Positions 23,254-56,749 of a stretch of 64,000 nucleotides of DNA are shown here, in pieces (within the stretch, counting starts at the first letter, position 1; every line of letters starts with the position of its first letter). This DNA comes from Halosolutus halophilus (GTDB taxonomy: Archaea; Halobacteriota; Halobacteria; Halobacteriales; Natrialbaceae): assembly GCF_022869805.1 (NCBI RefSeq), contig NZ_CP094974.1, forward strand, positions 1,612,001 to 1,676,000, given 5' to 3'. The notes under the pieces were generated by a model. That model did no database searches. It saw only the letters and a list, made by a program, of their open reading frames with translations, and was not told the origin of the DNA. Made by a program: the position numbers and the translations under genes.

Positions 23254-24630
23254 TTACGTAGCCAGGCTCGATCGACCGCTGATCACCATCGCCACACCGC
23301 CTCCGATAGCGCTGATGGCACCGACGAGACCGGCGATCGCGATCACGTTTCGCGTGGCGACGGTGGAATCCGACGAGAGACCGATCAGGGTCATCGCGAG
23401 CAAGACCAGGACGACCCCGCCGACGAGTGAACTGACGGTCGTTGCGGCGAGTCGCAGTCGACTGAACCGTCGGCTCCCCTCGCTCAACCCGAGGACGATC
23501 GCCAACACGGGAGCGACGAGGACGACGACTACCAGGCCGATCAGTGGGGCGAGTTGGCCGGCGATAGCCTGATCGAAGGTGACCTCGACCCACCCGACCG
23601 ACAGGTAGCCCGCGGCCCCGATCGCGACGCCGACCATCGTCATGAACCCGATCGTCCCGCCCGTCTTCCGGAGGACGTCGACGAACGCTTCGTCGGAGCG
23701 CTTCGCCACCCCGAGCCCAGCGAGCGCGATTCCGCTACCGAGTGCGACGACGGCAAAGAGCACACCGACGTCGAGGACCGTCGATCCGAGGACGCCGCCG
23801 GCATCGTCTCCGTCGGCACCGCCGTCGCCGTCACCGCCTGCACCGTCTTCCTCTGTGGCCATCGAGACGTCGAGTGCGGCCGTCTCGTTCGCCCGAACCT
23901 CGACGGTTTCTTCGACGGTCTCGTATCCGCTCGCGGAGAACCTGAGCGGTTGTTCGCCGACACCGATTTCGACCTCGTAGGCGCCGTTTTCGTCGGTCGT
24001 CGCCGAACCGGTGAATTCGGTGGCGGCGATCTCGACGCCCTCGATCGGCTCACCGTTCTCGTCGGTCACCGTTCCCTCCACGGTCCCCGTCTCGATCCCG
24101 GCGAGCGTGTTCGCCGCCGCGTTCAGGTCTTCGTCGATGGCCTCGACGCGGTTGGCAGTACGTCGAAGCGAGTCCGCGGCTTCATCGGCACCGTCACTGA
24201 TGTGTCCGTACTCTTCTTCGATCCGATCGGCTTCCGCGCGTGCTTCCGCCGCCGTGTCGACGTGGTTGGCGATCTCCACGCCCGCACGTTCTTTCGCCTG
24301 TTCGTTGATCTCCTCGACGACCCGATCGAGCATCGTATCGTGCACGCGGGTCGCCTCTTCGCGCAATCGTCGGGCCTCCGTTTCGGCTTCGGTTGCGGTT
24401 TCGGCCTCGACTGCTGCGACGAGTTCGATGTCTTCGACGTTCTCGAGTCCGGCGTTCGTCTCCTCGATACGATCGTTCGTGTCCGCGATCGCGTTCGCGT
24501 TTACCTCCTCGACGTCGCTCTCGTCGAACTCCTGGGCAGCGACGGTGCCGGGACCGAACCCGACCGCGATACTCGTCGACAGTACGAGGAGCATCGAAAG
24601 CAGGAACACTCCCACCTGTTGTCTGTTCAT
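23254..24630 (-). CDS. Membrane protein with coiled coil and carboxypeptidase-regulatory-like domain
   Basis: The protein has 458 residues. A Sec signal peptide (VGVFLLSMLLVLSTSIAVGFG...TVAAQ) leads to an alanine/glutamate-rich coiled-coil region (about 40-175) with repeated ETEAEARR-type heptads. A beta-sandwich of the carboxypeptidase-regulatory/transthyretin-like type follows (about 180-260, GTVTDENGEPIEGVEIAA). After an acidic glycine-rich linker, four transmembrane helices (about 285-455) close the protein. The folded N-terminal parts should face outward. The role is unknown; similar architecture suggests an envelope or surface protein. Confidence 0.8.
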   Translation of the reverse strand: MNRQQVGVFLLSMLLVLSTSIAVGFGPGTVAAQEFDESDVEEVNANAIADTNDRIEETNAGLENVEDIELVAAVEAETATEAETEARRLREEATRVHDTMLDRVVEEINEQAKERAGVEIANHVDTAAEARAEADRIEEEYGHISDGADEAADSLRRTANRVEAIDEDLNAAANTLAGIETGTVEGTVTDENGEPIEGVEIAATEFTGSATTDENGAYEVEIGVGEQPLRFSASGYETVEETVEVRANETAALDVSMATEEDGAGGDGDGGADGDDAGGVLGSTVLDVGVLFAVVALGSGIALAGLGVAKRSDEAFVDVLRKTGGTIGFMTMVGVAIGAAGYLSVGWVEVTFDQAIAGQLAPLIGLVVVVLVAPVLAIVLGLSEGSRRFSRLRLAATTVSSLVGGVVLVLLAMTLIGLSSDSTVATRNVIAIAGLVGAISAIGGGVAMVISGRSSLAT

Positions 24631-24842
24631 TATGACTAATCATGCAGTATTTCTAAACAATATATGTTGTGGTTCGTGTGGCGTGTATTATCTCCCGTGA
24701 CGGAATGTTACGTGACGTATTGACTGGAATTTGGTACTATTTGGTTGTTTTGTCACTATTAGCTCGTCTGTTCTCGAGTTTATCAACGAATTCGCTTGCC
24801 GGAACGGGAGGCAGGACGACGTTTTTGGAGGCAGCGGGTCGG

Positions 24843-43326: not shown

Positions 43327-45201
43327 ATGACCGACACCGAGTACGACTACGAGGAACTCGGACTCGTCGCCGGGCTGGAGATCCACCAGCAACTGGATAC
43401 GGCGACGAAGCTGTTCTGTAACTGTCCGACCGACCTTCGCGAGCCCGACGAGTCGACGCGTACCTTTTCACGCTACCTCCATCCCACCCGGAGCGAACTG
43501 GGCGAACTCGACGCCGCCGCCGTCGAGGAGAGCACGGTCGATCGGAAGTTCGAGTACCTCGCGTACGACACCACCTGTCTCGTCGAGGAGGACGACGAAC
43601 CGCCACACCGGCTGGACGACGAGGCCCTCGAGACGGTTCTCGAGATCGCCCAGCTGATGGACATGGCCCCGGTCGATCAGGCCCACGTCATGCGCAAGAT
43701 CGTCGTCGACGGCTCGAACACGTCCGGATTCCAGCGATCGACGCTGATCGCCACGGACGGCGCGATCGAGACGAGCGAGGGCTCCGTCGGGATCGAGGAT
43801 CTCATGCTCGAGGAGGAGAGCGCCCAGCGGGTGACCGAAACCGAGGACGGTGTGCGCTACAGTCTCGATCGGCTCGGCATTCCGCTGGTCGAGATCGGCA
43901 CCAGCCCGGACGTCTCCACGCCCGAGCAGGCGCTCGAAGCGGCCGAACGGATCGGAATGCTGCTGCGCTCGACCGGAAAGGTCAAGCGCGGACTCGGAAC
44001 GATCCGCCAGGACGTCAACGTCTCGATCGAGGAGGGTGCCCGGGTCGAGATCAAGGGCGTCCAGAGTCTCGACGACATCGACGATATCGTTCGCAACGAG
44101 GTCGCCCGGCAGGTGGAACTCGTCGCGATCACCGACGAACTGGCCGATCGCGAGGCGTCTGTCGACGAGCCACAGGACGTGAGCAGCGTCTTCGAAGACA
44201 CCGAGAGCGGTGTGATCAACGGCGCATTGAACTCGGGTGGCTCGGTGATGGCGGTCCCCCTGTACGAGTTCGACGGCCTCGTGGGGCGCGAAATCGCGCC
44301 CGATCGTCGCCTCGGCACCGAGTTCTCCGACCACGCGAAGCGCCACGGCGCGGGCGGGATCTTCCACACGGACGAACTGCCCGCCTACGGCGTCACGGAA
44401 GGCGAGGTCGAGGCGCTTCGCGAGGCCGTCGGTGCCGGCCCCGAGGACGCCGTCGCTATCGTCGCCGACGACACCGACACGGCCGAGACGGCGATCGACG
44501 CCGTGGCCGATCGGGCCGGGATGGCGCTCGAAGGGGTCCCCGAGGAGACCCGCGGCGCGAACGACGACGGGACGACACGCTACCTGCGTCCGCTGCCCGG
44601 TGCGGCGCGGATGTACCCCGAGACGGACGTCCCGCCGGTCGAACCGGACCCGAGCGACGTCCCGGAACCCGAGCTCCTGACCGAGAAAGTCGATCGCTAC
44701 CAGCGGGAGTACGGTCTCGACGCGGGACTGGCCGAACAGGTCGCCTACGGGCAGTACATGCCGCTGTTCGAGGACGTCGTGGCCGACGGCGTCGACCCGA
44801 CGCTGGCCGCGACGACGCTCGAGTCGACGCTGACCGAACTTCGCCGGGACGACGTCCCGGTGGAGAACGTGACGCGAGAGCACCTGGAGGACGTGTTTGC
44901 GATGGCCGAGGGCGGCGACCTCGCCCGAGAGGGGATCCCGGACCTGCTGCGGGCACTCGCGTCGGACCCCGACCGATCGGCCGAGAAGGCCGCGGACGCT
45001 GCGGGGCTCGGTTCGGCCGCCGAGGACGAGGTTCGCGAGGCCGTCGTCGAGGTCGTCGAACGAAACGCGGACCAGGTCGAGGACGAGGGCATGCAGGCGT
45101 TCTCGGCCCTCATGGGCGAGTGTATGGGTGCGCTCCGCGGCAAAGCCGACGGCGACCTGGTGAGCCAACTCCTGCGCGAGGAGATACAGAACCGGGCCTG
45201 A
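43327..45201 (+). CDS. gatE: Glu-tRNA(Gln) amidotransferase subunit E
   Basis: The 624-residue GatE pairs with GatD to convert Glu-tRNA(Gln) to Gln-tRNA(Gln), the archaeal route that replaces a glutaminyl-tRNA synthetase. It opens LGLVAGLEIHQQLDTATKLFCNCPTDL, the kinase-like catalytic start of the GatB/GatE family. It carries the GNTSGF/QRSTLIATDG block, the insert domain near 300-420 (AspRS-like), and a C-terminal YqeY-like helical domain (DLAREGIPDLLRALASD). The length is standard. The gene is followed by a short tandem repeat. Confidence 0.96.
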   Translation: MTDTEYDYEELGLVAGLEIHQQLDTATKLFCNCPTDLREPDESTRTFSRYLHPTRSELGELDAAAVEESTVDRKFEYLAYDTTCLVEEDDEPPHRLDDEALETVLEIAQLMDMAPVDQAHVMRKIVVDGSNTSGFQRSTLIATDGAIETSEGSVGIEDLMLEEESAQRVTETEDGVRYSLDRLGIPLVEIGTSPDVSTPEQALEAAERIGMLLRSTGKVKRGLGTIRQDVNVSIEEGARVEIKGVQSLDDIDDIVRNEVARQVELVAITDELADREASVDEPQDVSSVFEDTESGVINGALNSGGSVMAVPLYEFDGLVGREIAPDRRLGTEFSDHAKRHGAGGIFHTDELPAYGVTEGEVEALREAVGAGPEDAVAIVADDTDTAETAIDAVADRAGMALEGVPEETRGANDDGTTRYLRPLPGAARMYPETDVPPVEPDPSDVPEPELLTEKVDRYQREYGLDAGLAEQVAYGQYMPLFEDVVADGVDPTLAATTLESTLTELRRDDVPVENVTREHLEDVFAMAEGGDLAREGIPDLLRALASDPDRSAEKAADAAGLGSAAEDEVREAVVEVVERNADQVEDEGMQAFSALMGECMGALRGKADGDLVSQLLREEIQNRA

Positions 45202-45225
45202 TTCGACGGGACCGTCGAGTTCTAC

Positions 45226-45278
45226 GTTTCGGTGCGGATTCAGTTTTCGGTGTGAATCCCGTTTTCGGTGCGAATCCC
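45226..45278 (+). repeat. 18-bp tandem repeat behind gatE
   Basis: GTTTTCGGTGTGAATCCC (45243-45260) and GTTTTCGGTGCGAATCCC (45261-45278) are adjacent copies differing at one base. A diverged copy precedes them at 45226-45242 and a degenerate one follows. The array ends about 100 bp before the next gene. Confidence 0.7.
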
Positions 45279-45382
45279 GTTTCTGGCGGTAGTTTTCTCG
45301 ACTGTCGAGGATGGTATGACATCACGTGTCGCAAACATTTATCAGTACCAACGTTGCCGGATTACACAACCAGGTGGTCCCG

Positions 45383-46003
45383 ATGAACCAAGAATCCGTT
45401 ACAGCCGTGTGTCACGTGCGCGCACCGTTGCTCCTCGAACCGATCGATAGACAGGTCGAGACGCTGCAGGCGTGTGAGTCCGAAGGCGCGGTCGACGATC
45501 TGCTGCTTCGCAGTTGGCCCAAGGAAGTCGCGCTGAAGGAATCGAACCCCCACCAGGAGGTCCTCGAAACGTACGATCGGCTCACCGACTGGGCCGATCG
45601 ACAGGGCGTGAGCGTCGAACCGCCGTTCAGACAGCGGACGACGACCTCGCAGGTGACCGGCGAGACGACGGAGTTGCTCGTCACGCCCCTGCTGTGTCTC
45701 GAGGTGTACGCCGACGACGAACTGATCGGAGTGTTCCCCCACTCGGCGGACGACGAGACGTACACCACCGACGAGGCGATCGCGACGCTCCGGACCGGGG
45801 ACCTGCCGACACCACTCGAGGGCGAAACGTACATCGAGGGGACGACGCCGGGTGACTGTCCAGCCTGTGGCGGCTCGCTGGTCGACGGACAGGGGCTGTT
45901 CGCGTGTTCCGACTGTGGCTGGGTCGGGACCGTCACCGGGACAGGAGAGTACGTTTCCCACTCGGTGCCGGACGAAACCCCGGAACGCCAGATCAAGAAC
46001 TGA
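45383..46003 (+). CDS. Zinc-ribbon protein with helical N-terminal domain
   Basis: The 206-residue protein from ATG 45383 begins with a strand and helix (VTAVCHVRAPLLLEPIDRQVETLQA). A conserved-looking core follows (DDLLLRSWPKEVALKES...LETYDRLTDWADRQGV) and the C-terminus is a Cys4 ribbon (CPACGG...CSDCGW). The fold resembles small haloarchaeal regulators that sense through a helix bundle, but I cannot name it. A TTTATC box about 30 bp before the in-frame ATG supports this start over the upstream one at 45326. Confidence 0.7.
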   Translation: MNQESVTAVCHVRAPLLLEPIDRQVETLQACESEGAVDDLLLRSWPKEVALKESNPHQEVLETYDRLTDWADRQGVSVEPPFRQRTTTSQVTGETTELLVTPLLCLEVYADDELIGVFPHSADDETYTTDEAIATLRTGDLPTPLEGETYIEGTTPGDCPACGGSLVDGQGLFACSDCGWVGTVTGTGEYVSHSVPDETPERQIKN

Positions 46004-46120
46004 GAAGTGACGCTCCGGTAGCAGGGTCTATCGAGCGAACAGGCGACGATCGGTGACGCGGCCCACCGGACGGCCCGTTTCTTGCATCGGACGACGCGGT
46101 TCTCACACCGGACAGATCGC

Positions 46121-47161
46121 TCACTCGTCGGCGACGTCGTCCGCGTACTCGGCATCGACGGTCACAGTGGTGCCGACGCGATCGACGGTGACGGTGTCGG
46201 CGTCCGATCCGAGTTCCGACTCGAGGCGATCCTCGTCGACGAGGTCGTCGGAACTGTAGTCGACGACGGACGTCGCACGGGCGCCGACGTCGTCTTCGAC
46301 GATCGACAGTCGCTGGTGGATACCGGTGGAGCCGGTGAAGGCGGCGAACTCGAACGTGGGCCCGTCGGCGTCGTCCGATCGATCGTTCGAGAGCGTCTCC
46401 GCGTCGAATTCGTCGTCCGTCGTGTACAGACAGAGGGTAATCCCGTCGTCCTCGCCGGTCCGGATGAGTGACGCGAACTCGTCGTCCGTTTCGTGTTTCG
46501 GCTCGCGGTCTCCGGCCGCCGTCGCGACCGTTCGTTCGACCGCCGTGACCGGATCGAAGTCGGGATCGGTCGCGTTCGGATAGCTGAACGCGAACACCTC
46601 GTCGCTGACGCCGACGACTTCGCCGCTGTCGGGATCGGTGTACACTGCGTACGTCTCCGCGTCGGTTTCGACGTCGTAGCCGGCGTCCTCGAGATCGGTC
46701 CTGAGGTCGTCGAACGCGTAGGAACCCGCGAGCGCGTACACGCCATCGACGAAGACGAACGCTCCGGTTCCATCGTCAGTCTCGTCGTTTTCCCGATACG
46801 GATCGAAACTGGACGAATCGGCCAGTTGGCCGAGGCCGAACAGATAGTAGTTGAACGTGAAGGCAATCGGATTGCCGAGCAACGGATCGCTCGGTTCCGC
46901 GCCGTCTTCGGGACTCTCGTCGTCGCGAAGCGCGGCGATCGTTTCCTGATCGATCGCACCGTAGAAGTATCTCGACTCGTCGTTTTCGGGGAGGAGAGAC
47001 GCGTACCGCGGCAGTTCGCCGTCCGATTCACCATCGTCGTCCGACGACTCGCCCCCCGGATCGGTTCCGTCGTCGCTCGACTCCGAACAGCCAGCGAGAA
47101 GTGTCGTTCCGGTCCCCACACCAAGGAGGTGCAGGACTCTCCGTCGGTGTACCTCAGTCAT
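46121..47161 (-). CDS. Acidic lipoprotein, unknown function
   Basis: The 346-residue protein has a short signal with a twin-arginine-like RRRVLHLLG and lipobox LAGC near residue 25. An acidic low-complexity segment leads to two similar modules (about 50-205 and 205-340). Each carries a YFYGAI / IHQRLS-type beta pattern, and the C-terminal one has the VDYSSDDL block. The duplicated build hints at an extracellular binding protein. A 15-bp tandem repeat lies 28 bp upstream. Confidence 0.75.
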   Translation of the reverse strand: MTEVHRRRVLHLLGVGTGTTLLAGCSESSDDGTDPGGESSDDDGESDGELPRYASLLPENDESRYFYGAIDQETIAALRDDESPEDGAEPSDPLLGNPIAFTFNYYLFGLGQLADSSSFDPYRENDETDDGTGAFVFVDGVYALAGSYAFDDLRTDLEDAGYDVETDAETYAVYTDPDSGEVVGVSDEVFAFSYPNATDPDFDPVTAVERTVATAAGDREPKHETDDEFASLIRTGEDDGITLCLYTTDDEFDAETLSNDRSDDADGPTFEFAAFTGSTGIHQRLSIVEDDVGARATSVVDYSSDDLVDEDRLESELGSDADTVTVDRVGTTVTVDAEYADDVADE

Positions 47162-47188
47162 CCAGTAGCAGTGGAGGCTGACATCACA

Positions 47189-47218
47189 TTACTGTGGTGG
47201 TCGTTACTGTGGTGGTCG
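47189..47218. repeat. Perfect 15-bp tandem repeat upstream of the lipoprotein gene
   Basis: TTACTGTGGTGGTCG occurs twice in direct succession (47189-47203 and 47204-47218). It begins 28 bp upstream of the minus-strand lipoprotein start, the position of TATA and upstream elements. Confidence 0.7.
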
Positions 47219-47271
47219 TCACGACGTGCCGCAGTTCGTCACCACCAGCCGTGGATCCTCGTGAGAGTGAA

Positions 47272-48036
47272 CTACCGATCGGCCGGTCGTTCGGTCGCGC
47301 GCCGCAGGAGACCGAGCAGCGTGTTCGCCTCCCGTTCGGTCAGGTCGGCACGGCCGTAGACTCGACGGAGCATGCGCATCGTCTTCTCGCGTTTCTCTTC
47401 GGGGTGGTTGATCTCGACGAGCAGGTCCGCCCACTGGTCGTAGAGTCGATCGACGGCCGGTTCGGGGGCCCGAACGCGCTCGACGTCCGGAAGCTGAGTG
47501 TCGCCGCCCAGCGTGAGCGATCGGAGTTCGTACAGCGTCACGGTCGCGGCCTGACCGAGATTGAGGACGGGATACTCGGCGCTGGCCGGGATCGAACAGA
47601 TCTCGTCGATCCGGGCGAGTTCTTCGTTGGTGAGTCCGACCCGTTCGCGCCCGAAGACGAGCGCGGTCTGTGCCTCGACCCGCAGCAATCGCTCCGCGAG
47701 ATCCGCAGGCGTCGAGTATGGAAAGCGGACGTGACGCCGATCGTCCTCGTTCGTCACGGCTGTACAGCCGATCGTGTGATACTCCTCGACGAGTCGATCG
47801 AAACTGATCTCGGTGGCGTTCGGAAGGACGTCGTCGCGGGCGTGCCCGGCGTACCCGTACGCATCACCCTCGGGATCGAGTTCGGGTGGATCGACGAGCA
47901 ACAACTCCTCGAACCCGAAGTTCTTCATCGCTCGCGCGATCGTGCCCACGTTTCCGGGGGTCGTTGCGTCAACCACGGCGACTGCCGGAGGTGTTCGCCC
48001 GTCCGGCAACTCGCGGGTGGACTGCTCGTCAGTCAT
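47272..48036 (-). CDS. trmJ: tRNA 2'-O-methyltransferase TrmJ (SPOUT family)
   Basis: The 254-residue SPOUT knotted methyltransferase modifies the ribose of nucleotide 32 in tRNA in its family. The knot motifs are visible: PGNVGTIARAMKNFGF (about 27-42), ALVFGRERVGLTNEEL (near 130) and the SAM loop YPVLNLGQAATVTLYEL (near 155). The C-terminal 70 residues form the family helical extension. It is the last gene before the replication origin, transcribed away from it. Confidence 0.9.
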   Translation of the reverse strand: MTDEQSTRELPDGRTPPAVAVVDATTPGNVGTIARAMKNFGFEELLLVDPPELDPEGDAYGYAGHARDDVLPNATEISFDRLVEEYHTIGCTAVTNEDDRRHVRFPYSTPADLAERLLRVEAQTALVFGRERVGLTNEELARIDEICSIPASAEYPVLNLGQAATVTLYELRSLTLGGDTQLPDVERVRAPEPAVDRLYDQWADLLVEINHPEEKREKTMRMLRRVYGRADLTEREANTLLGLLRRATERPADR

Positions 48037-48243
48037 TGGTTCGTCTGTCGCGACGTCGGTCGATCTCGTTGGCTGACGACCGCACGGACTCCCTCGAACC
48101 GCTCATACGGATGCTATCGACCGTGGCGTCAAAAGTGACGTGTTCGGAGAGAGCCGTCTTCCCGCTCCGACCTACTGAGAGTCGATCGCGCTGACAGTAT
48201 CTTCGCATCGGTTTTCGGAGCGTGGTCCAGCATCGGTTCCTCG

Positions 48244-48364
48244 GAGGATAAGAGGATCCCTAGAGGATAAGGGATAGGTTCGGGTAGTTAGAATAGGTTA
48301 GAATAGATCTAGAACTAGTATGAAAAGAACTAGTATGAAGTCATCTAGAGACGATTGAGACTAG
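48244..48364. repeat. AT-rich block with stacked direct repeats and CTAG cluster
   Basis: GAGGATAAG recurs at 48244 and 48263, GTTAGAATAG is a perfect tandem (48287-48306), and AGAACTAGTATGAA recurs at 48311 and 48326. Six CTAG tetranucleotides fall at 48260, 48309, 48315, 48330, 48345 and 48361. It is much richer in A+T than the surroundings and lies beside the ORB-like elements, so it is the best candidate for the duplex-unwinding element. Confidence 0.65.
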
Positions 48365-48510
48365 AACTTGATCCCACTGCTTGACCGAGACGTCCTGCAT
48401 TTGGAATCCCGCGTTTTGAATATCGGGATCGAGTTCGTCCCTCGTGCCAACGATCTGCCAGCGTCCGTTTGACCCGCTCGTGGGACAGCAGCCACTGGAG
48501 TGACACGGGG
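48365..48510. other. Spacer between unwinding block and origin boxes
   Basis: The stretch has partial peptide-like frames on the minus strand that switch frame (for example DELDPDIQNAG then KQWDQVLVS), maybe a lost gene. No feature can be supported. Confidence 0.3.
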
Positions 48511-48534
48511 ACACACCCCCCTCGCGTTTGTAAG
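48511..48534 (-). promoter_or_regulatory. Origin-recognition-box-like element 1
   Basis: The minus strand reads CTTACAAACGCGAGGGGGGTGTGT, matching the consensus TTACATCCGCGASGGGGGTG of the set at most positions. The G-string is a hallmark of haloarchaeal ORBs. Confidence 0.6.
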
Positions 48535-48535
48535 T

Positions 48536-48549
48536 CCACATTCGTGTGG
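48536..48549. repeat. Short perfect hairpin CCACA-TTCG-TGTGG
   Basis: A 5-bp stem with a TTCG tetraloop sits between ORB-like elements 1 and 2. It may contribute to origin structure. Confidence 0.4.
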
Positions 48550-48564
48550 GGGTCTTCGTTGGCT

Positions 48565-48588
48565 ACACACCTTCGTCGCGGATGTAAT
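48565..48588 (-). promoter_or_regulatory. Origin-recognition-box-like element 2
   Basis: The minus strand reads ATTACATCCGCGACGAAGGTGTGT, the consensus with a shortened G-string. Orientation matches element 1 and is opposite to elements 3 and 4. Confidence 0.6.
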
Positions 48589-48656
48589 ATCGGTCGTTCC
48601 GACGACAGATACGGCCGAAATCGACGGTTCGATCGATCACCCCCCACCCATTTGCC
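48589..48656. other. Inter-ORB spacer
   Basis: The region between the oppositely oriented boxes 2 and 3, about 70 bp, includes a CACCCCCCACCC C-run near its right end. The strand of the G-run is the opposite of boxes 3 and 4. No gene. Confidence 0.35.
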
Positions 48657-48680
48657 GTTACATCCGCGACGGGGGTGTGC
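48657..48680 (+). promoter_or_regulatory. Origin-recognition-box-like element 3
   Basis: The plus strand reads GTTACATCCGCGACGGGGGTGTGC, the best match to the consensus. It faces away from elements 1 and 2. Confidence 0.65.
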
Positions 48681-48849
48681 GTGGGGTTCCGGTAATTCAA
48701 TCGCTCGAACCCCGGTAAAGCCGGTGCTCGGATCGGACTCTCGAGACGGAGTTTCGACAGTCCGCCGCGGATTCCGTCCCGCCCGTCGGAGCCGTCGACT
48801 CCCTCGGAACGAGGCGGCACGATCGACCACTCCGGTCGACACGCCAACA

Positions 48850-48873
48850 GTTACATCCGCGAGGGGGGTGTCG
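48850..48873 (+). promoter_or_regulatory. Origin-recognition-box-like element 4
   Basis: The plus strand reads GTTACATCCGCGAGGGGGGTGTCG, 20 of 24 bases as in element 3, with one more G in the string. It lies about 240 bp upstream of orc1. Confidence 0.65.
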
Positions 48874-49076
48874 GGGGCACGCTTCGGACGATGGGAACGA
48901 TGGAGTCGCTACAGGTCCCAGTGGCCGATCCGGACGATCGGGACGAAGCGGTGATCCGGGCCGCCTTAGAAACGCGAGGTAGGCGGCCGTCCGATATACT
49001 CGTTTTACGGCACTCTTCCCGACTATCAGGGACTCTATTAGGAGATTTACACCCGCGATCGATCTCCATAGCTTTA

Positions 49077-49093
49077 TTTCAATCCAGTTGAAA
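49077..49093. promoter_or_regulatory. Dyad TTTCAA-N5-TTGAAA before orc1
   Basis: A perfect 6-bp inverted repeat with 5-bp spacer lies immediately after the TTTATTT box and about 17 bp before the orc1 ATG. It may be an autoregulatory operator, or part of a degenerate ORB (it is followed by CGG-TCCGGG). Confidence 0.5.
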
Positions 49094-49109
49094 CGGTCCG
49101 GGTACTGCA

Positions 49110-50348
49110 ATGTCCGCGAACGACGATCGTGATCCACTCTTTCGGTACGACGATCCGGTCTTTGCCGACGAGCGATTGCTCGAGATCACGCATCTCCCCG
49201 GTCCGGACCGGATCGTCGGGCGCGACGACCAGATGCAACGGGTAGCGGACGCCCTGAATCCTGCGATCTTCGGGAGCGAACCCAATCACCTGTTCATCTT
49301 CGGGAAAACCGGCACCGGCAAGTCGCTCATCTCCCGGTCGGTTACCCAGCGAGTGATCACGGAAGCCCAACACGACGACGTCACGGTGAAGTACGCCTTC
49401 ATCGACTGCGGGGAACAGAATACGGAAGCATCGATCGTCAAGACGATCGCCCAGATCGTCAACGAACCCGAACGGAGCGGCGTCACCGTCCCCGATCGTG
49501 GTCTCGGCACCGGCGACTACTACAAACGGCTCTGGGAGGCCGTCGACGACTGTACCGACGTCACGATCGTCATCCTGGACGAGATCGACATGCTCGAGGA
49601 CGACGAAGTGCTCCGGAAACTCTCTCGTGCTGGCGAGAACCGTCGGATCTCGGACTCGAGTATCGGGATCATCGGCATTTCGAACAAGATCGACTTCCCG
49701 GATCACCTCTCCGAACGGGTCAAGTCGAGCCTCTCGCGCGACGAACTCGTCTTCTCCCCGTACGACGCGAACCAACTCGTCGAAATCCTCGAGAAACGAC
49801 GGGACGCGTTCCACGACGGCGTGCTCTCCGACGACGTGATCCCGCTGACCGCCGCGCTCGCGGCCCAGGAACACGGCGACGCACGCAAGGCGATCGACAT
49901 CCTCCGGAACGCCGGCCGGATCGCGAAGAAACAAACCGACACCCGGGTCACCGCCGACCACGTCCGTGACGCGAAAGAGAAGACCGAAGCCGATCGGTTC
50001 AACGAACTGATCGAGGGCTCGCCCCAGCAGGCCAAGGCGATCCTCTACTCGTTGACCTTGCTGACCGAGAACAGCAGCGAGAAGGAGTTCCCGACGAAGA
50101 TCATCTACAACCAGTACAAGGAGATCGCCCGCCAACTCGACTTCGACGTGCTCTCGGAACGGCGCGTCCAGGAGATCCTCCAGGAACAGAACTTCCTCAA
50201 CGTGATCCAGTCGGAACGCGAGGGTCGCGGGCGCGGGCGCGGCGCTCACGCGAAACACCGCTTGCTCGAGAATCCCTCGATCGTCAAGAAGGTGCTGTTG
50301 CGAGATTCGCGACTCGCCCCTCTCGAGGACGCGAACCCGGACGCCTGA
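49110..50348 (+). CDS. orc1: Orc1/Cdc6 replication initiator
   Basis: The 412-residue AAA+ initiator binds origin boxes and loads the MCM helicase. Seen directly: Walker A GKTGTGKS (65-72), Walker B ILDEID (155-160), sensor-1 region IGISNKIDF, sensor-2 region EHGDARKAIDILRNAGR and a C-terminal winged helix (RRVQEILQEQNFLNVIQ). The final basic-glycine RGRGRGAHAK stretch is the wing of that domain. It stands beside its predicted origin. The ATG gives the common length and an acidic N-terminal tail; a TTTATTT box lies 35 bp before it. Confidence 0.96.
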   Translation: MSANDDRDPLFRYDDPVFADERLLEITHLPGPDRIVGRDDQMQRVADALNPAIFGSEPNHLFIFGKTGTGKSLISRSVTQRVITEAQHDDVTVKYAFIDCGEQNTEASIVKTIAQIVNEPERSGVTVPDRGLGTGDYYKRLWEAVDDCTDVTIVILDEIDMLEDDEVLRKLSRAGENRRISDSSIGIIGISNKIDFPDHLSERVKSSLSRDELVFSPYDANQLVEILEKRRDAFHDGVLSDDVIPLTAALAAQEHGDARKAIDILRNAGRIAKKQTDTRVTADHVRDAKEKTEADRFNELIEGSPQQAKAILYSLTLLTENSSEKEFPTKIIYNQYKEIARQLDFDVLSERRVQEILQEQNFLNVIQSEREGRGRGRGAHAKHRLLENPSIVKKVLLRDSRLAPLEDANPDA

Positions 50349-50874
50349 CGGTCGATCGGTAACTGCGGGCCGTGAGACGGTCCCTGTATCGCGACTCCCG
50401 GGCTCTGACCCGTATTTTCGCAGTTCGACCTGGATCCTTCTATGGCACGCTCAGGAACGGCTCGGTCCCGGGTGTGCAGCGGTGTCCACGTCGCCCAGCG
50501 TTCCGACGACGATCGTGGACAGATCGCGCACGTCGACAAGGACAGGACCCGCTCGCCGTCAGAGACACGCATTCGCCCCTGGCCGCGGCTGCCGCCCTCG
50601 ACTCGTCGATTCCGGATGGCGACGGCGGAAGTGACCACCTGGGTGTACTATCACACACGTCGGAGCGACCGACGCCGGCGGAAACTCGATCGGAGAATCG
50701 TTCCCGGCGGTCCGAACGACGGACCTCGAGAGGCCGGGCGGTCCTGTCGAACTCGCGGTTAGCGGGCCGCAAACGCTGGCTGGCTACGTCGGACGGCCGG
50801 GGCTGACCGACGACCACCGCAGTCCCGTTCGCCGCAATCGCGTCTCCTTTCCGTCTCCCCTCCCCAGCGAAAGT
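50349..50874. other. 526-bp gap without a convincing gene
   Basis: Frames here are basic and arginine-rich, unlike real haloarchaeal proteins (for example one at 50442 starting ARSGTARSR). No promoter or terminator stands out. It separates orc1 from the folP-mptE pair. Confidence 0.4.
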
Positions 50875-52068
50875 ATGAACAGCGTCGACGCGGCCGGACT
50901 GGGGATCGGTGACGAGTACCCGCCCCGGATCATGGGCGTGTTGAACGTCAGCGACGAGTCGCCCTACGATCCCAGCGTCTACGACGACCCCGGCGAGGCC
51001 GCCCAGTACGTCGACGAGGAACTGATCGGCGAGGGAGCGGACATCGTGGACGTCGGACTCGAATCCGCGAACAAGCGGTTCGACGTCCGCTCCGCCGAGG
51101 CGGAACTCGATCGCCTCTCCGTTGCCTGTGAGACGATCGAGAGCGTCTCGGGTGACGCGATCTTCTCGATCGAGACCCGGTACGCCGAGGTCGCCGAGGC
51201 GGCGCTGAATCGGGGGTTCGACATGGTCAACGACGTCGCGGGCTTCGCCGATCCGGAGATGCCGTCGGTCTGTGAGGACCACGACGCCGCCGTCGCGAAG
51301 ATGGCGAGTCCGCCGGATATCGAGCGCCCGGGTGCGGTCGAGGAGACGCCGTGGGCCGACCGGAAGTCTCCAGAATGGGCCCGACAGGCCGACTACGTCG
51401 ATCGGGTCTACGAGGCGCTGAAACAGAACGGACTCACCGACAAGACCATCGTCGACCCGGCGTTCGGCGGCTGGAGCGAGGCCCAGACCCTCGCGGACGA
51501 TCGCGAGACGTTCAGCAGGCTCCGGGAGTTTCGCGCGCTCGGCCGGCCGATACTGGTCTCGATCAACCGGAAGAATTTCCTCGGCGAGATCGCCGATCGC
51601 GAGACCGAAGAGCGCCTGCCGGTCAGTCTGGCGGCGACTTCGATGGCGGTCGAGCGGGGCGCAGACGTGATCCGGACCCACGACGTGTCGGAGACGCGCG
51701 ACGCCGCACTGATCGGCGACGCGTTCACCGAACGGGCGAGCGCGACGGCCGGCGACGTCTCGGCGACCCGACTCGACGTCCGGTCGAGGCGTGATCTCCG
51801 GCGACAGCTGGCCGAATTCGGGATCGACCCGTCGGCCGCGGACGACTGGCAGACGGAGGTCGTCGAGATCGAGGGACTCGACCCCGGGGCTCGCGATCGG
51901 CTGGCCTCGATCGCGGTCGATCGTGGCGCGGTGGTCCACGCGGGAGACCAGGATCGCGTACTGCTGCTCGGGTCGACGACGGCCGTATCGGACGTTGAAG
52001 CCCAGCTACGCGGCGAAACCGACAGTCTCGTTCGCCTACACATCACGTTGCGTGAAATGCTGCGCTAA
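50875..52068 (+). CDS. folP: Dihydropteroate synthase-like protein
   Basis: The 397-residue protein resembles the DHPS TIM barrel that joins pterin pyrophosphate and aminobenzoate. It starts RIMGVLNVSDESPYDPSVY, where the classical family has an NVTPDSF loop. The DVGLESANKRFDV motif stands for the usual GGESTRPG, and the later VSINRKNFLGEI is the substrate loop. The changes imply a distinct haloarchaeal branch. The last 110 residues add an extra domain (ETEVVEIEGLDPGARDRLASIAVDRGA). mptE follows 132 bp later, so folate or H4-pterin synthesis is plausible. Confidence 0.82.
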   Translation: MNSVDAAGLGIGDEYPPRIMGVLNVSDESPYDPSVYDDPGEAAQYVDEELIGEGADIVDVGLESANKRFDVRSAEAELDRLSVACETIESVSGDAIFSIETRYAEVAEAALNRGFDMVNDVAGFADPEMPSVCEDHDAAVAKMASPPDIERPGAVEETPWADRKSPEWARQADYVDRVYEALKQNGLTDKTIVDPAFGGWSEAQTLADDRETFSRLREFRALGRPILVSINRKNFLGEIADRETEERLPVSLAATSMAVERGADVIRTHDVSETRDAALIGDAFTERASATAGDVSATRLDVRSRRDLRRQLAEFGIDPSAADDWQTEVVEIEGLDPGARDRLASIAVDRGAVVHAGDQDRVLLLGSTTAVSDVEAQLRGETDSLVRLHITLREMLR

Positions 52069-52075
52069 GAGAAAG

Positions 52076-52151
52076 CTTATACCGGAGGCATCGAAAATAG
52101 GGAGTGGACGCCGGGCGGCCTCCCGGGTAGGGGTACTTTGGAGGCGACCCC
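52076..52151 (+). promoter_or_regulatory. Candidate structured leader upstream of mptE
   Basis: CTTATAC (52076-52082) is a TATA-like box. Then GCCTCC (52118-52123) pairs with GGAGGC (52140-52145), while GGGGT (52130-52134), which lies inside that loop, pairs with ACCCC (52147-52151). The two helices interleave as in a pseudoknot or alternative folds. A separate AATTATTG box (52168-52175) could serve mptE directly. Confidence 0.4.
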
Positions 52152-52200
52152 CGGCCCACAACACGGAATTATTGTGGTGTTACACCGTTCAGTGACGACT

Positions 52201-52899
52201 ATGGAGTACGACGAGTGGGAACCCGTCTACGAGGCGATCCGTCGCGACTTCGGCTACGATCGGGCCGGTGACGAACGCGCACGCGACGTACTCGCCGAGT
52301 TGACGGTGCCGTTCGACTTCGACTACCTCGACGCGATCCGAGACGCCACCGTCGCGATCGCGGGTGCCGGGCCGTCGATCGGGACCGATCGGGCCCGCGA
52401 ACGGGCGTCGAACGCGGACGTCGTCGTGGCCGCCTCGACGGCGGTCGACGACCTCGAATCGTCGGGCGTAGCGGTCGATTACATGGTCACCGATCTCGAC
52501 AAGAACCCGGAGACGGTGCGACGACTCACTCACAGCGCAACGCCGGTAGCCGTCCACGCCCACGGCGACAACGTCGCGGCCGTCAGGGCGGTCGTCCCCG
52601 ACTGTGCTGAGGAGTACGTCTTGCCGACCACGCAGGTCGCACCCGCGGGACCGGTTTGCAATTTCGGGGGCTTCACTGACGGTGATCGGGCCGCCTTCCT
52701 CGCGGATCACTTCGGGGCCGATCGGCTCGTCTTCGTCGGCTGGGACCTCGACGATCCCGCGGTCGGACCGATCAAGGAGAAGAAACTCGCCTGGGCCGAA
52801 CGACTCCTCTACTGGCTCGAGCAGCGACGTGGCGATCGGTTCGACGTGCTCGACGGCCGCCGCACCGCCGTCGATACGACGACGCTCCCGATCGACTGA
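52201..52899 (+). CDS. mptE: 6-hydroxymethyl-7,8-dihydropterin pyrophosphokinase (MptE-type)
   Basis: The 232-residue protein is of the archaeal pyrophosphokinase family that replaces bacterial FolK and activates the pterin for condensation with aminobenzoate. Visible elements are the glycine motif VAIAGAGPSIG (about 52-62), VVAASTAVDDLESSGV, the aspartate-rich VTDLDKNPETV and PVCNFGGFTDGDRAAFLADHFGA. The gene lies downstream of folP, consistent with the next step. Start at ATG 52201, supported by an ATTATTG box at -30. Confidence 0.9.
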   Translation: MEYDEWEPVYEAIRRDFGYDRAGDERARDVLAELTVPFDFDYLDAIRDATVAIAGAGPSIGTDRARERASNADVVVAASTAVDDLESSGVAVDYMVTDLDKNPETVRRLTHSATPVAVHAHGDNVAAVRAVVPDCAEEYVLPTTQVAPAGPVCNFGGFTDGDRAAFLADHFGADRLVFVGWDLDDPAVGPIKEKKLAWAERLLYWLEQRRGDRFDVLDGRRTAVDTTTLPID

Positions 52900-53002
52900 C
52901 TGCGATCCGGCGAACGACTGACTCGCGATCCGATGGATCGAGACTGGAGGGGAACGGAAGACGTGATCGACGGGGGAAGACGTGATCGACGGTGATCGGT
53001 TC

Positions 53003-56499: not shown

Positions 56500-56687
56500 A
56501 GCTGTCTTCCGTGGCCGTCCACTCAGCCGGTCGATCGGCGGGGGCCGATCTCGGTTGCCGGCCTGTGAACGGGTACCACACCTGTGTCGTCGCCAGTGAG
56601 AGGTATTGTTAATGCGATCATATACTGTTAGAAAAGACTGTCTTCTACTCTATAGATTCTTCAAAAACCGAAATTCATGCGATAGTT

Positions 56688-56749
56688 ATTGTAGCCGGCT
56701 CTCGATGGTCCGGTTTCTATTGTAGCCGGTCCTCGAGGGTCTGGTTTCG
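56688..56749. repeat. 31-bp tandem repeat in the cetZ / solute-binding-protein intergenic region
   Basis: Two adjacent copies (56688-56718 and 56719-56749) of a unit starting ATTGTAGCCGG share 26 of 31 bases. They sit about 190-250 bp upstream of cetZ and about 220-280 bp upstream of the solute-binding-protein start. Confidence 0.7.

Follow-up and report, generated by a model that had tools for sequence, protein, structure and literature searches.

In E. coli, methylation of GATC at oriC influences how the origin unwinds as well as its sequestration. The CTAG island analyzed here resembles this Dam/SeqA/GATC system in that palindromic sites, predicted targets of an orphan methylase, are clustered at a replication origin, while it differs from it in that the predicted modification is m4C and not m6A, the motif is CTAG and not GATC and is scarce in the rest of the genome; we know of no SeqA-like reader of hemimethylated CTAG. 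A further difference is that the CTAG methylase is dispensable in H. volcanii, where deletion of CTAG methylation caused no growth defect and where only oriC2 is CTAG-dense (Ouellette et al. 2018, PMC5867850). The methylase family makes m4C at CTAG, as described for HVO_0794 (PMC5867850), and m4CTAG was 97–98.7% modified in two Natrinema (PMC6696651). Blow et al. (2016, PMC4752239, Fig 6D; the motif is given as CTAG in the figure legend but as CATG in the main text) reported that haloarchaeal genomes have several CTAG clusters located upstream of orc1/cdc6 genes and that these correlate with an orphan m4C methylase. What the conserved CTAG methylase of haloarchaea does, and why CTAG is scarce, are stated open questions (Fullmer et al. 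2019, PMC6471742).

The present locus shares with the clusters of Blow et al. the CTAG density peak upstream of orc1/cdc6, its occurrence at several orc genes of a genome and its tracking of the methylase gene. Such clusters are thus already known; new, compared with the density seen in 50-kb plots (PMC4752239), are the base-level placement of the cluster on the least stable duplex, that is, on the predicted unwinding element, the lateral layout at this origin (the cluster is outside the boxes here and inside them at oriC1), the evidence for turnover under constraint and a methylase-lacking control of matched AT content. Similar to the archaeal duplex-unwinding elements covered by a haloarchaeal survey (PMC3528665), the island is AT-rich and unstable, lies upstream of orc1 and has ORB boxes with halophile G-strings next to it, but unlike them it is lateral to the boxes instead of lying between inverted ORBs.

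Position, composition, and stability of the island

The window, that is, the whole 64-kb stretch of DNA analyzed, belongs to a Natrialbaceae-type genome of 5.06 Mb, which consists of a single contig and carries many Orc1/Cdc6 genes. The elements follow each other in the order TrmJ gene (−), CTAG/AT island, ORB-like boxes (−, −, +, +) and orc1 (+), the island being the outermost element of this Orc1/Cdc6 origin, between the TrmJ gene and box 1 (Table 1). All four ORB-like boxes, two per strand, carry halophile G-strings, and the interval between boxes 2 and 3 has 58% GC. Inverted ORB boxes do not flank the island, which lies outside all four of them.

Table 1. Features of the CTAG island and its origin (positions in the window)
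Feature	Position	Strand	Remarks
TrmJ-family RNA methyltransferase gene	47272..48036	-	flanking neighbour; TIGR00050, above cut-off
CTAG island	48244..48364	.	121 bp; AT-rich (39% GC), repeat-rich; putative duplex-unwinding element
9-bp direct repeat GAGGATAAG	48244-48252 and 48263-48271
CTAG site 1	48260..48263	.
10-bp repeat GTTAGAATAG	48287..48306	.	two copies, tandem
CTAG site 2	48309..48312	.
14-bp direct repeat AGAACTAGTATGAA	48311-48324 and 48326-48339	.	as 14/15-bp AGAACTAGTATGAA(A/G), two copies: 48311..48340
CTAG site 3	48315..48318	.	within copy 1 of the 14-bp repeat
CTAG site 4	48330..48333	.	within copy 2 of the 14-bp repeat
CTAG site 5	48345..48348	.
CTAG site 6	48361..48364	.
ORB-like box 1	48513..48533	-	G-string toward island; inverted relative to box 4, 90% over 21 nt; kept in orthologous loci
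ORB-like box 2	48566..48587	-	91% complementary to box 3
ORB-like box 3	48657..48678	+	95% identity with box 4 over 22 nt; conserved
ORB-like box 4	48850..48871	+	conserved about 190-260 bp ahead of orc1
orc1/cdc6 gene	49110..50348	+	initiator gene of the island's origin, 412 aa; TIGR02928, E 3e-123, 411 bits

The first-pass annotation had described six CTAG sites and direct repeats of 9, 10, and 14 bp within about 120 bp, and all of them are present where it had placed them. It had also taken CTAG to be generally depleted, with which the counts agree: the window contains 28 CTAG compared with approximately 73 in dinucleotide shuffles, hence the motif is depleted in the window elsewhere, and at the rate found outside the island (0.34/kb) 0.04 would be expected per 121 bp, while six were observed (Poisson P = 6e-12). 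Shuffling the island's own dinucleotides yielded a mean of 1.6 CTAG (P = 4e-4 for six). A repeated 14-mer appeared in 0.08% of these shuffles (8e-4), whereas the 10-bp repeat is unremarkable by itself, because any repeated 10-mer was found in 6% of them. Since the 14-bp repeat holds two of the six CTAG, the repeat and CTAG observations are partly dependent. As to other AT-rich DNA, the stretches 56604–56724 and 24622–24742 (36–37% GC), with an AT content like that of the island, have zero CTAG.

By nearest-neighbour energies, the stability minimum of the 64 kb falls inside the island whether windows of 50, 100, or 120 bp are used; close to the boxes, the orc1 promoter region (approximately 48,993–49,113) comes next in weakness. 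The island, AT-rich and with a predicted duplex stability below that of any other DNA around the initiator boxes or in the 64-kb window, therefore looks like a duplex-unwinding element, as the annotation had suggested, and CTAG clusters lie on the thermodynamic minimum at two origins of this genome and at most orthologous origins.

CTAG clusters at orthologous and other origins

The comparison set comprised 71 loci encoding Orc1/Cdc6 relatives, the closest of which were Natrialbaceae such as Natrinema, Halopiger, and Haloterrigena. In almost all Natrialbaceae orthologs the 1.5 kb preceding orc1 contain 3–12 CTAG, mostly as one tight group at about −600 to −1200 from the gene, while the remainder of each locus has 0–0.6 per kb. 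The cluster is situated in non-coding DNA upstream of orc1/cdc6 and recurs at orthologous places. When the island of each of 50 loci (the window and 49 relatives) was chosen blind to CTAG, by taking the 150 bp of highest AT content upstream of orc1, 267 CTAG were found where 24.3 were expected, which placed the motif first among the 256 tetramers; these loci share ancestry and the counts are consequently not independent. The least stable 100 bp of the examined locus (up to 13 kb) coincided with the densest CTAG group in 35 of the 50, the boxes lying between the group and orc1. These numbers bear on the possibility that the island is a plain AT-rich unwinding element, in which CTAG is a by-product of AT-richness or of relaxed CTAG avoidance in non-coding DNA. 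The islands are the AT maximum, and any relaxation would resemble enrichment as CTAG is avoided elsewhere. However, CTAG exceeded composition 11-fold while the next-best palindrome reached 1.85-fold, and CTAG proved not to be as common elsewhere: AT-rich control windows of the same 50 loci contained 32 against 69.5 expected (0.46-fold). The equal-AT unwinding regions of oriC1 in methylase-lacking genomes (see below) were depleted to the same extent, and the by-product explanation, already contradicted by these data, is very unlikely. Two genomes, L060 and L047, have an orthologous Orc1 and the methylase and no CTAG island, their G+C minimum being just 0.48–0.55 per 100 bp, and would make natural negative controls.

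The cluster might be a protein-binding array through which a nucleoid protein or a CTAG-kinking repressor controls origin architecture independently of methylation; CTAG kinking in repressor complexes has been noted (cited in PMC6471742), and a CTAG–CTAG spacing of 5 bp is over-represented (47 vs. 30 expected). Yet the spacing is loose overall, and clusters are missing where the methylase is absent, a loss that was reported before (PMC4752239), thus we consider such an array unlikely. Strict helical phasing of CTAG was rejected, there being just the mild 5-bp excess, and so was the idea that strand asymmetry is conserved: the island of the window is purine- and TAG-rich, but the mean purine fraction over the 50 islands was 0.50. 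A search for decayed CTAG among one-mismatch words gave no consistent excess (ATAG and CTAC about 2-fold, TTAG and CTAA below 1).

Among relatives the sequence of the island changes fast, while the CTAG number and the position relative to the boxes persist. In the pair L029/L031 the island is about 50% identical, the surrounding 1050 bp are 93% identical, and the number of CTAG stays similar. Among close relatives CTAG was retained in place in 63/128 cases compared with 324/1237 for other 4-mers, that is, about twice as often, although these counts depend on alignments which CTAG itself may anchor, inflating the figure. Short direct repeats occurred in 34 of the 50 islands against approximately 11 expected; being general in islands, the repeats seen in the window are in line with fast turnover, for which slippage or small duplications are a plausible route. 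The neighbouring gene had to be considered as well, since the island is upstream of TrmJ and some IS elements target CTAG (cited in PMC6471742); the island could serve the TrmJ gene as regulatory or terminator DNA, or be a site prone to insertions, and have no role in the origin. The loci L061–L063 contradict this, as they have no TrmJ in the examined locus, and so do L043 and L075, where TrmJ is displaced by 1–2 kb; in all of them the cluster keeps its place relative to the boxes and orc1, hence the island is not part of TrmJ. An Rfam search of 44000–53000 gave no match either, and this explanation is largely refuted and barely credible.

Rarity was measured over the 5.06 Mb by counting places where three CTAG follow each other at short gaps. 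Such triplets exist at four places, two of which are about 0.8–1 kb upstream of orc1 genes, namely the island and a region that precedes the Orc1 gene C1:4332979-4334430; the other two are intergenic places with no nearby origin gene. The latter (L099:3480-3672 and L100:3154-3187, at C1:2951479 and C1:3441653) lie between ordinary metabolic or transport genes. The region upstream of C1:4332979-4334430 is the canonical oriC1 (L098:4869-5265, C1:4335368-4335764), where an interval of about 300 bp, with CTAG in its AT-rich core, lies between ORB boxes of opposite strand; six of the nine CTAG upstream of this Orc1 gene are between the opposed boxes. The cluster, being between the boxes at oriC1 and outside them at the island, thus follows the unwinding region. 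In ten further genomes of the family, 10/15 CTAG-triplet loci preceded an orc gene by no more than about 2 kb, a tally that includes two loci running across the record start. In another genome (G182) two further orc genes, C1:948301-950268 and C1:3453964-3455372, also have upstream CTAG triplets, hence the association is wider than oriC1 and the TrmJ-linked origin. Another triplet, CTAGCAGGTTATTGCTAGCCTGC at G187:C1:3155934-3155979, is not at an origin; it is GC-richer, palindrome-like and about 19 kb from the nearest orc gene.

Co-occurrence with the CTAG methylase

Among the products of the genome is one strong N4/N6 methylase of the type expected (352 aa, encoded at C1:1909939-1910994, the best PF01555 match), which is a predicted orphan CTAG methylase, its specificity being assigned by orthology (PMC5867850, PMC6471742). 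An ortholog is present in 169/194 sampled class members and in 50/50 genomes with the orc1 ortholog. As presence or absence is uninformative in the latter, a class-wide comparison over Halobacteria was used, in which composition-corrected CTAG counts were taken from the ORB-flanked interval of oriC1. The AT content of this interval is alike with or without the methylase (0.51–0.53; mean of methylase-lacking genomes 0.52, Natrialbaceae 0.51). The 19 methylase-lacking genomes had 7 CTAG vs. 15.3 expected (0.46-fold), while enrichment was 2.2-fold in 14 genomes of that family which carry the methylase and are not Halorubrum, 2.4-fold in four genomes of other families and 5.5-fold in four methylase-bearing Natrialbaceae (26 vs. 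4.7 expected). The methylase contrast had P 3e-4 with the ORB-flanked interval and composition correction, and was weak (P 0.05) in a simple Mann-Whitney comparison of the densest 150 bp in one family. It may rest on few evolutionary events, because among the listed genomes without the methylase all 20 belong to one family.

The methylase-bearing genomes of genus g23 (L134–L138) had 0 CTAG at oriC1 vs. 3.3 expected (n = 4). This genus is probably Halorubrum, following PMC6471742, and the absence of CTAG fits the patchy, transferred methylase of Halorubrum (PMC6471742). Carrying the methylase with no clusters suggests a recent gain of the gene or a different role in this genus, and warns that the methylase gene alone does not bring CTAG clusters.

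A putative methylation-sensitive unwinding element

Considering these results, we propose, with a probability of roughly 0.68, that the island is the duplex-unwinding element of an Orc1/Cdc6 origin and that its selected CTAG cluster provides putative m4C marks, set by the conserved orphan methylase, which tune initiation. The data show the position and low stability of the island, the origin-specific enrichment of CTAG, its persistence despite turnover and its co-occurrence with the methylase gene; from these we infer unwinding at the island, methylation of its CTAG and an effect on timing. The unwinding-element and methylation readings are compatible, because CTAG clusters on thermodynamic minima and the genome encodes an ortholog of the CTAG-targeting methylase.

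N4-methylcytosine weakens C–G pairing, therefore methylation could act directly on opening; our search of the literature on m4C duplex stability yielded nothing usable. In the proposed mechanism, Orc1 would bind the four ORB-like boxes, and the resulting strain would open the weakest adjoining duplex, the island, on the outer (TrmJ) side; Orc1 of A. pernix binds T-rich single strands (PMC8287685). The CTAG sites would make the opening step methylation-sensitive, since they would be fully methylated before fork passage and hemimethylated just after it. The m4C state might alter the ease of island opening directly, or a protein reading hemimethylated CTAG might act indirectly, and in either case re-initiation would be delayed until remethylation, the period after fork passage being unfavourable for it. 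Methylation of the island's CTAG could instead mainly regulate orc1 transcription rather than unwinding, given that the clusters are upstream of orc1/cdc6 genes. The separation from the start of orc1, about 0.7–0.8 kb that include the box array, the coincidence of the cluster with the thermodynamic minimum and the oriC1 cluster inside an ORB pair all speak against this, making it highly improbable.

Several observations stand against the methylation-tuned unwinding element. The AT minimum is outside the box array, unlike in canonical archaeal origins, where it is between inverted boxes, and H. volcanii tolerates the loss of CTAG methylation, while Halorubrum, L060, and L047 possess the methylase with no clusters. 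A more specific form of the proposal, which is rather doubtful and is offered tentatively, is that m4C-CTAG on the unwinding element of Natrialbaceae acts as a once-per-cycle switch convergent with Dam/SeqA, where full methylation would lower the melting barrier and hemimethylation would restore it or recruit a reader. With the CTAG cluster located on the weakest duplex of the origin, the neighbourhood of CTAG and orc1 becomes a mechanism that is specific and testable. Clusters of CTAG may also help to locate unwinding elements in those haloarchaeal origins where the boxes do not flank AT-rich DNA.
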